Assembly: GCF_900114615.1 (NCBI RefSeq)
Contig: NZ_FOTS01000055.1
Location: 1-35,527 of the forward strand
Direction of reading: 5' to 3'
DNA: 35,527 nucleotides
Origin: Pelosinus propionicus DSM 13327
Lineage (GTDB): Bacteria; Bacillota; Negativicutes; DSM-13327
Position numbers and translations under genes: made by a program. Numbering within the stretch: position 1 is the stretch's first letter; every line of letters begins with the position of its first letter. The notes under the pieces were generated by a model. That model made no database searches. It saw only the letters and a list, made by a program, of their open reading frames with translations, and was not told where the DNA came from. This document shows, one piece after another, positions 9,411 through 35,429 of this stretch.

Positions 9411-9446
9411 AAAAAAAGACCACCATCTCGTACAGAGACAGTGGTC
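9411..9446 (-). terminator. T-box terminator stem
   Basis: GACCACTGTCTC (9435-9446 on the complement) pairs fully, with two G-U pairs, with GAGATGGTGGTC (9418-9429). Seven T residues follow. It is mutually exclusive with pairing of the T-box sequence at 9446-9460. Confidence 0.9.
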
Positions 9447-9725
9447 CGTGGTTCCACTCTGCTTAGGTATTACTATTAATACCTCTTAGACGCACAATAA
9501 CGGTTGCTACCGAATTGACCTACTATACATTCAGCCAACTTGTTCATGGGTGCATTTTGGGCGTATCTTTCCTAGTATCGCTCTCAGCCGGTGGCGTTAC
9601 TTCTCTGGAAGGTAGACTTACACTTACTTTTCCCAATCATTACATTTTCTTATATATGTATGCAGCATTACTTGATTTGGTAACCTTCAAAATAACAACC
9701 ACTCAAATTTATGCTTACTTCTTAT
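9411..9725 (-). ncRNA. T-box riboswitch leader, cysteine-specific, upstream of cysE-cysS
   Basis: Read on the minus strand, the 5' part has the stem I features of T-boxes: AAAAGTAAG, CAGAGAAG and GGCTGAGAGC. A loop with AAAATGCACCCATGAAC follows, whose TGC at 9552-9554 is the likely cysteine specifier codon. The T-box core AGAGTGGAACCACGG lies at 9446-9460, and a competing terminator follows at once. Uncharged tRNA-Cys should stabilise the antiterminator and allow cysE-cysS-mrnC-thyX transcription. The 5' end is inferred from the promoter. Confidence 0.92.
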
Positions 9726-28145: not shown

Positions 28146-28174
28146 TTTACAATCTTATGTATTCAATTTATAAT
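28146..28174 (+). promoter_or_regulatory. Candidate promoter of the SpeD-like gene
   Basis: TTTACA (28146-28151) and TATAAT (28169-28174) with a 17-base spacer. The leader to the start codon would be about 115 bases. The rest of the divergent gap is AT-rich without clear structure. Confidence 0.5.
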
Positions 28175-28297: not shown

Positions 28298-28765
28298 ATG
28301 ATTATGGGAATTATAAGCAGGCACCTCACCATTGATATGTACGGATGCAGTTTTGAAGGTCTTACTACCATGGAAATTCTTAAGCAAGCAATTCTGACAG
28401 CCATTGCTGAATCGAATATGACCCTACTTGAATTCACCGAACACCAATTTCAACCCCAAGGTTTAACAGGTCTCGCAGCTCTGGCATTACTAGCAGAAGG
28501 TCATATGAGTATACATACATTTCCCGATAAAGGTTATGCCGCCATCGATTTATTCAACTATAGTGATGCAAGCCAACCTGACAATGCCTCTAAAGTTTTA
28601 AAGAAATTCTTGAAACCAGAAAAAATTAAAATTACAAATATTAAACGTGGAGACTTTGGCTCGATCAGTGACATGAAACCAAAAATTAGAGTAACCAGCA
28701 CCCCTATACGCCGTGTACGAGATACAAGTGCTAAGGTGTTCAAATTTTTATCCCGCTCCAAATAA
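28298..28765 (+). CDS. SpeD (S-adenosylmethionine decarboxylase) family protein lacking the cleavage serine
   Basis: 155 residues, against about 125-130 for class 1B SpeD. The fold is recognisable: RHLTIDMYGC near the start, HQFQPQGLTG, and AEGHMSIHTFPDKGYAAIDL (about 66-85). In known SpeD this reads SESH[LI][TS]IHT[WF]PE, where the Ser after Glu becomes the pyruvoyl cofactor. Here that position is Gly68. The later FTCG, with the proton-donor Cys, reads FNYS. His73, used in processing, is kept. A basic tail (about 125-155) is extra. The protein should therefore not self-cleave in the known way, and decarboxylase activity is doubtful. No speE neighbour. RBS AAAGGAG precedes the ATG. Family is sure; function is unknown. 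Confidence 0.82.
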   Translation: MIMGIISRHLTIDMYGCSFEGLTTMEILKQAILTAIAESNMTLLEFTEHQFQPQGLTGLAALALLAEGHMSIHTFPDKGYAAIDLFNYSDASQPDNASKVLKKFLKPEKIKITNIKRGDFGSISDMKPKIRVTSTPIRRVRDTSAKVFKFLSRSK

Positions 28766-28778
28766 TGGACCAGACGTA

Positions 28779-28827
28779 AGAAAACCACTAGACGATTCAT
28801 TTAATGAATGCGCTAGCGGTTTTTTTA
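28779..28827. terminator. Bidirectional terminator between the SpeD-like and HPr-like genes
   Basis: AAAACC-CTAG...GATTCATT pairs with AATGAATGCGCTAGCGGTTTT with small interruptions. It is flanked by A-rich left and T-rich right tracts and serves both converging genes. Confidence 0.82.
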
Positions 28828-28851
28828 TTTATAGCAGACTCTATATCCCTT

Positions 28852-35312: not shown

Positions 35313-35429
35313 AACCAGCAACTACCTATCCTCCCAGGCCGTTTCCAACCAAGTACTTTCGGCGTATAAGGGCTTAACTACTGTGTTCGGTATGGGAACA
35401 GGTGGAACCCCTTAGCTATCGTCACTGGA
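35313..35429 (-). rRNA. rrf: 5S ribosomal RNA
   Basis: About 117 bases. Conserved 5S segments are seen on the minus strand: CCACCTGTTCCCATACCGAA, CACAGTAGTTAAGC, GCCGAAAGTACTTGG and CCTGGGAGGATAGG. The ends pair: CCAGTGAC (5') with GTTGCTGG (3') over eight positions, which sets the boundaries to within a few bases. It is the last gene of an rRNA operon whose 23S gene would lie beyond the right edge. Confidence 0.96.

Follow-up and report, generated by a model that had tools for sequence, protein, structure and literature searches.

A class-wide family of SpeD homologues in Negativicutes with a conserved basic C-terminal extension and repeated loss of the pyruvoyl-forming serine

Results

The window gene and its surroundings

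The window analyzed here is a stretch of 35,527 nucleotides from Pelosinus propionicus DSM 13327, contig C100 of a 5.41-Mb genome. An open reading frame in it had been predicted from the letters alone to encode a homologue of adenosylmethionine decarboxylase (SpeD, AdoMetDC), and profile searches bear this out. The 155-residue product scores 104.6 bits against PF02675 (cut-off 25) and 107 bits against TIGR03330 (cut-off 75.65); because both scores exceed the cut-offs, the protein is a SpeD homologue beyond chance. No Pfam model other than AdoMet_dc rises above its own cut-off within the 155 residues, and a fusion to an aminopropyltransferase domain is thus absent. The protein is 95-96% identical to a protein of P. 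fermentans JBW45 and to two other records. The features of the window that concern us are as follows.

9431-9649, minus strand: T-box leader (Rfam)
28146-28174, plus strand: sigma-70-like promoter candidate, TTTACA-17-TATAAT (consensus match only, 11/12; the scan gave 8 sites in the region against 4.9 expected)
28298-28765, plus strand: coding sequence of the tailed SpeD-like protein, 155 residues, stop included (PF02675 and TIGR03330 matches)
28313-28651, plus strand: SpeD-fold core, residues 6-118 (TIGR03330 match to residues 6-118; AlphaFold2; VIA Z of about 19 to T. maritima AdoMetDC)
28469-28477, plus strand: three-residue insertion, residues 58-60, preceding the cleavage-site strand (alignment)
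28499-28501, plus strand: Gly68 codon GGT, at the position of the pyruvoyl-forming Ser63 (alignment)
28514-28516, plus strand: His73 codon, equivalent to the processing His68, kept (alignment)
28559-28561, plus strand: Tyr88 codon TAT, at the position of the catalytic Cys83 (alignment)
28652-28762, plus strand: conserved basic C-terminal extension, residues 119-155, net charge +7 (alignment and charge count)
28776-28828, unstranded: hairpin between convergent genes, probable terminator (-22 kcal/mol, z -5.5)
35313-35429, strand not given: 5S rRNA at the window end (Rfam)

The candidate promoter, the hairpin after the stop and the convergent next gene together make it probable that the gene is monocistronic. 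The pattern scan that gave the promoter candidate listed no terminator. The Rfam matches at the gathering score in the window are the T-box leader and the 5S rRNA only, and neither lies near the gene as a riboswitch would. The T-box leader is upstream of serine acetyltransferase- and cysteinyl-tRNA synthetase-like genes (names by reading). As had been predicted, neither speE nor another polyamine gene is seen beside the gene in the open reading frame list of the window, where gene names were read from the sequences.

The pyruvoyl-forming serine and the catalytic cysteine are replaced

The window protein was aligned with T. maritima AdoMetDC and 24 ordinary class 1b SpeDs, 22 from other Bacillota and 2 from Negativicutes. 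Section 7 of PMC10407285 names Ser63, His68 and Cys83 as essential in SpeD. The original prediction had assigned Gly68, His73 and Tyr88 to these positions, and the alignment places them there: the pyruvoyl-forming serine is replaced by Gly68 and the catalytic cysteine by Tyr88, and the processing histidine is kept as His73. All three residues are present in the 24 ordinary class 1b SpeDs, which are the best-scoring ones and hence a favourable choice, and in all 17 class 1a SpeDs of Negativicutes (16 and that of the window genome). The glycine is conserved in its clade. It occurs in all ten Pelosinus-family genomes (G000-G009) and on the complete P. fermentans JBW45 chromosome, which rules out an isolated change or a sequencing error, and the serine is gone in other families as well. 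Five of the 152 aligned rows have the insertion at residues 58-60; they all come from Pelosinus and have already lost the serine.

Self-cleavage at Ser71 had been named as a way in which the protein might still be processed. As a general substitute it fails, since that column holds serine in 14 and threonine in 22 of the 76 Ser-less proteins, but in the Pelosinus protein itself cleavage at Ser71 could still take place. Within six columns of the cleavage position, no single Ser, Thr or Cys is found in more than 22 of the 76. With the pyruvoyl-forming residue missing at its usual site, it is very unlikely that the window protein is a pyruvoyl-dependent decarboxylase. The SpeD-derived arginine and ornithine decarboxylases (SpeDA and SpeDC) likewise have a changed activity, and all those described in PMC10407285 are pyruvoyl-dependent. 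The change in the window protein is of another kind, as had been proposed, for here the serine itself is gone.

A conserved basic extension marks the Negativicutes proteins

A basic tail of about 25 residues had also been predicted. The tail is present, but it is longer and spans 37 residues. It fits the consensus DFG..DMKPK...P.RR...TG.KV...L, which follows the SpeD core in the relatives of the window protein. Across 112 thinned tailed proteins the extension is 34-61 residues long and has a net charge of +5 to +20 in every case, with a mean of +9.2, compared with a mean of -0.3 for the C-terminal ends of 12 ordinary proteins. Its most conserved residues are P128 (128 of 128 proteins), D125 (121) and D119 (117). 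In three proteins of family f23 (L114, L155 and L156, from genomes G313, G312 and G311), the RGDFG stretch that opens the tail and is conserved elsewhere lacks its DFG.

The distribution of the family was followed with two profiles. The whole-length profile A1, built from 27 relatives, matches 357 of 380 Negativicutes genomes (E up to 1e-15), but it cannot prove the presence of a tail because ordinary SpeDs also match it, at 1e-24 to 1e-36. The tail-only profile A4 was built from 33 tails, and the window tail, which matches it with an E of 4e-19, is one of its rows. A4 matches 355 of the 380 genomes and 97 of 102 genera, and 228 of the 234 genomes with a completeness of 90% or more and a contamination of 5% or less. 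There is a single match per genome, except for two each in G058, G180 and G204. The 25 class genomes with no match include two, G023 and G061, that are 99-100% complete.

Among 299 evenly drawn Bacillota genomes, the tail-only profile matched 10 of 10 Negativicutes and 3 of 289 others. These three matches are at chance level (E 6e-4); two of them lie in frames interrupted by three stops, the third in a frame of 347 residues. A1 matched 196 of the same 299 genomes, and its listed matches outside the class end at model position 131 or before, except for one that reaches 140 through a stop. The two match patterns indicate that SpeDs of the ordinary kind are widespread in the phylum and that the extension marks the class. 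When the 45-residue C terminus of the window protein was searched in 12 genomes, the only hits outside the family were two at chance level (E 0.32 and 0.55), and no PDB chain matched it at E up to 10. Together with the Pfam search, these searches found no separate home for the tail, and an origin as a shuffled domain was rejected.

Proteins that represent the diverged families (L079, L090, L091, L098, L171 and L174) score 58.8-72.4 bits against TIGR03330, below its cut-off of 75.65. Automatic names are therefore inconsistent across the family, as the Ser-less window protein passes this model and diverged members fail it.

Structure prediction gives a SpeD fold with an added strand and helix

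The AlphaFold2 model of the window protein, made from 48 rows, has a pLDDT of 86.6 and a pTM of 0.76. The SpeD core is confidently predicted, with block means of 86-98 from residue 11 to 120. In the tail, a strand is predicted at residues 129-136 (pLDDT about 71-75), followed by a basic helix at 143-152 with low confidence (pLDDT about 55-58). A second model, led by a protein of f11, has the same layout, with the strand at 124-129 and the helix at 136-147; the helix is of low confidence in both models (pLDDT about 54-63).

The best fold matches are structures of T. maritima AdoMetDC, with a VIA Z of 18.9-19.2, an rmsd of 1.7-2.1 over 116-117 residues and 33-34% identity. They include the non-processing mutant S63A, whose structure shows that the AdoMetDC fold forms without processing. 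The next matches, at a Z of about 10-12.5, are eukaryotic AdoMetDCs, including the trypanosome AdoMetDC/prozyme complex, which Foldseek also finds. The N-terminal part of human spermine synthase matches with a Z of 10.4 and an rmsd of 2.6 over 100 residues. Weak matches at a Z of 6-7 (SAM lyase, GTP cyclohydrolase and others) were not counted as functional evidence.

The serine has been lost repeatedly within the family

The catalytic positions were read in 128 distinct tailed proteins, a set that is not a census and in which the Sporomusa side is over-represented. The cleavage position is Ser in 46, Gly in 70, Cys in 4, Ala in 4, Thr in 2, His in 1 and Phe in 1, so that the serine is missing in 82 of the 128. 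The cysteine is missing in 45 and kept in 83, His68 is kept in 122, and the full triad is found in 29. These 29 may be active, and for this reason the family as a whole should not be regarded as dead. In two Ser-less families, glycine is fixed at the cleavage position (27 of 27 thinned proteins in f11 and 20 of 20 in f15). Of the 46 proteins that keep the serine, 44 encode it by AGC or AGT; both codons are one transition away from a glycine codon, which may explain why glycine is the usual replacement.

After the Ser and Cys columns had been taken out of the alignment, an IQ-TREE phylogeny was calculated for 112 tailed proteins and 12 ordinary ones. The tree splits the tailed from the ordinary proteins (support 95/96), and parsimony on it requires at least 10 changes of the serine and at least 16 of the cysteine. 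The exact numbers are soft, since 29 of 121 inner branches are open, the tree has several long end branches and the bootstrap is unsettled. Separate losses of the serine are well supported for the Pelosinus family (100/91), for two f9 proteins (97/91), for a protein with a Ser-to-Cys change inside an f23 clade (100/98) and for the large side of the tree that holds f11 and f15. A tree joining all 76 Ser-less rows was rejected with a p-AU of 4e-87, in a test whose group is defined from the residues themselves and which includes long branches. The serine was thus lost repeatedly, and a single origin of the loss was discarded.

Both the core and the tail remain under constraint

Mean pairwise identities of core and tail are 0.69 and 0.88 in f1, 0.40 and 0.68 in f11, 0.39 and 0.54 in f15, and 0.44 and 0.61 in f25, compared with 0.74 and 0.69 among the triad-keeping proteins. 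The tail therefore leads where the triad is lost, and the core equals or exceeds it where the triad is kept. Nei-Gojobori dN/dS values, for which dS is near saturation in most pairs, are 0.06-0.14 for the core and 0.025-0.11 for the tail in Pelosinus-family pairs, and 0.03 and 0.04 in the triad-keeping pair L006/L038. The Ser-less pair L118/L119 has a core value of 0.03, as low as in triad-keeping pairs, and in the Ser-less pair L150/L152 the tail (0.14) exceeds the core (0.07). Core and tail are clearly both under continued constraint. The identities suggest that the core was relaxed after the loss of the serine; dN/dS does not settle this.

Several residues of the core are nearly invariant in the Ser-less proteins, namely His69, His73, Asp84, Cys17 and Asp13, and Cys83 is kept in 27 of 27 f11 proteins. 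Most proteins of f11 and f15 have lost Phe49 and the Pro and Gly that follow it. The persistence of near-invariant residues after the serine is lost suggests that the site has a function beyond scaffolding.

The tailed gene persists without class 1a SpeD or SpeE

A canonical speD elsewhere in the genome had been suggested as something to look for, and one is found. The window genome has one further PF02675 member, an intact class 1a SpeD on another contig (C89; TIGR03331, 467 bits) with its K-S-H and T-C-G motifs intact, and SpeE is encoded on a third contig (C128, 244 bits). For INDEPENDENCE from pathway, 65 Negativicutes genomes were chosen for completeness and spread. Two PF02675 members are present in 35 of them, one in 28 and none in 2. 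TIGR03331 detects class 1a SpeD in none of the 30 genomes with at most one member and in all six controls. The tail profile matches each of the 28 single-member genomes and neither of the two that have no PF02675 member, and the serine is absent from all 26 tailed proteins read among the 28 (G259 and G277 left out). SpeE has a strong match in 13 of these 28 genomes, a 26-bit match only in one and none in 14. Conversely, the two genomes without any PF02675 member, G023 and G061, do have SpeE. The survey therefore indicates that SpeE can do without the tailed protein, which in turn does not depend on class 1a SpeD.

SpeE in genomes without class 1a SpeD is often lower scoring, at 188-198 bits, and these genomes have no visible source of decarboxylated AdoMet. 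At four such loci (L215, L216, L217 and L218, in G047, G038, G019 and G339), Orn/Lys/Arg decarboxylase- and saccharopine dehydrogenase-like genes were read nearby. Profiles applied to L217 identified SpeE, an Orn/Lys/Arg decarboxylase and NspC (423 bits, cut-off 409), together with a dehydrogenase that scores 418 bits against carboxynorspermidine synthase, below the model cut-off of 800. The same dehydrogenase was found in L216, and an agmatinase in L215. Class 1a SpeD may have been lost because of a carboxyspermidine-type route, for which no AdoMet is required. Some genomes have, in addition to the tailed protein, a class 1b SpeD of the ordinary kind without a tail (L004 and L005, in G058 and G011), and G058 has class 1a SpeD too.

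The neighbours of the tailed gene differ by family and include nitronate monooxygenase/FabK-like, rubrerythrin, RecD2-like helicase and LGT genes, with one example of each neighbour type confirmed by Pfam. A divergent RecD2-like helicase gene, whose identity is backed by Pfam in L152 only, adjoins the tailed gene in 15 loci of f15, f27, f28 and f29, and LGT flanks it in 11 loci of f11. A ctsR-type cluster (ctsR-mcsAB-clpC) is near the gene in about 30 of 73 loci, with names by reading, and a scan of 20 loci showed rRNA genes close by in 8. Assemblies often break near the tailed gene because rRNA genes lie close. The ctsR-mcsAB-clpC and rRNA surroundings look like inherited gene order and not function. 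Operon logic was set aside as a guide to function, as the neighbours vary between families and show no consistent functional link.

Discussion

The reading that we favour, with a confidence only a little above even, is that the window protein is a SpeD-derived pseudoenzyme, from a family specific to Negativicutes, that serves as a scaffold and holds out a basic arm to a polyanion. The core would keep the AdoMetDC fold and presumably also its dimer, and a protein without the pyruvoyl residue at the usual site would not carry out pyruvoyl-dependent decarboxylation. Selection would act on the fold and more strongly on the C-terminal arm, made of the added strand and the basic helix. The folded dimer could then present its arms to a polyanion, for which the ribosome or another RNA, DNA or the inner face of the membrane are candidates, and a ligand in the old pocket might perhaps gate the arm. 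The strongest positive clue to function is the tail: a folded core that carries a basic, amphipathic predicted arm suggests a scaffold in contact with a polyanion, which might be RNA, DNA, a ribosome, a membrane or an acidic protein.

The near-invariant residues of the old site fit a different emphasis, in which a small molecule would still occupy the AdoMet/polyamine pocket and its presence would be signalled by the basic arm to a nucleic acid or a protein. Cys83, fixed in f11, and the five residues named above would then be the remains of a binding site. However, all the residues retained are also kept in ordinary SpeD and could be structural, and the position of Cys83 is a tyrosine in Pelosinus. 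Phe49, the adenine contact, has mostly disappeared from f11 and f15 together with the Pro and Gly after it, which makes AdoMet itself an unlikely ligand in these families. We consider such a sensor possible but doubtful.

A more specific form of the polyanion reading, which we put forward as rather improbable, is that the SpeD fold has been turned into a nucleic acid- or ribosome-binding factor. Its arms would bind RNA and partly replace spermidine by protein contact, and the vestigial pocket might read the polyamine or AdoMet status of the cell. If true, this would account for the retention of the protein in genomes that have lost class 1a SpeD and SpeE.

An enzyme that works without a pyruvoyl group, or that is processed at another residue, on AdoMet or another substrate was also considered. 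His73 is kept, and in the 13 class-1a-less genomes with a strong SpeE the tailed protein is the sole visible AdoMetDC. A phage SAM lyase, which acts as a lyase on AdoMet (PMC7877911), is among the weak fold matches. Its Z of about 6 is, however, in the range of common arrangements, and no alternative cleavage residue is conserved within six columns of the site. In addition, G023 and G061 have that SpeE without any PF02675 member, and in the loci inspected SpeE lies beside carboxynorspermidine-type genes. Enzymatic activity of this kind appears unlikely.

Trypanosomes and one bacterial fusion already provide examples of dead AdoMetDC relatives, and an AdoMetDC-like domain is also part of human spermine synthase. 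The prozyme of trypanosomes is the precedent for a dead AdoMetDC paralogue that acts as an activator (PMC5201418), and like the tailed proteins it is a paralogue kept by selection. A non-enzymatic partner of the prozyme kind had been proposed; as such, the window protein would form a heterodimer with class 1a SpeD and switch it on. The intact class 1a SpeD and SpeE in the window genome and the Foldseek match to the AdoMetDC/prozyme complex are in line with such a role. It is nevertheless disfavoured, because the tailed protein is retained in 28 of the 30 genomes in which no class 1a SpeD is found, 14 of these 28 also without SpeE, whereas the prozyme pairs with a live AdoMetDC. Moreover, the prozyme derives from the eukaryotic two-domain enzyme, the E. 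coli class 1a enzyme is not known to need a partner, and the tail of the window protein matches no PDB chain at E up to 10. We regard a prozyme-like function as highly unlikely.

Least probable is a redundant SpeD copy that is heading for loss in each lineage: catalysis is indeed redundant in the triad-keeping genomes examined, as another SpeD is present in 14 of 14 (in G031 as two fragments), and Ser and Cys were lost many times, but decay is already strained by a tail found in 355 of 380 class genomes, by low dN/dS in the pairs tried and by a tail that is more conserved than the core in Ser-less clades.

Compared with class 1b SpeD of the T. maritima and B. subtilis type, which is taken as ancestral, the window protein has the same fold and keeps the equivalent of His68. 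It differs in being without the pyruvoyl serine and the catalytic cysteine, in its conserved basic extension and in that its family persists in genomes without a SpeE match. The N-terminal domain of human spermine synthase also has an AdoMetDC-like fold and is not known to carry a pyruvoyl group. That domain is fused to an aminopropyltransferase, whereas the window protein is a single chain of 155 residues with its own tail. PMC11203672 associates the spermine synthase N-terminal domain with dimerization. In Victivallis, a SpeD-SpeDC fusion has a dead C-terminal domain (PMC10407285), which sits together with a live SpeD half, whereas the window protein is free-standing. The words Negativicutes, Veillonella, Pelosinus and Firmicutes are absent from the main text of that paper. 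A literature search that covered few subscription journals found no free-standing bacterial pseudo-SpeD family among the matches listed and no paper on adenosylmethionine decarboxylase in Pelosinus.

What began as one odd protein widens to a class-wide family derived from SpeD, often without the catalytic residues and with a new, conserved basic extension. For the window protein, the curated name adenosylmethionine decarboxylase is probably a misnomer, although the protein passes the NCBIfam equivalog cut-off. The repeated losses of the serine provide a natural series in which to study the passage from a self-processing enzyme to a non-enzyme, and the tailed family poses a testable functional question in the diderm Firmicutes.
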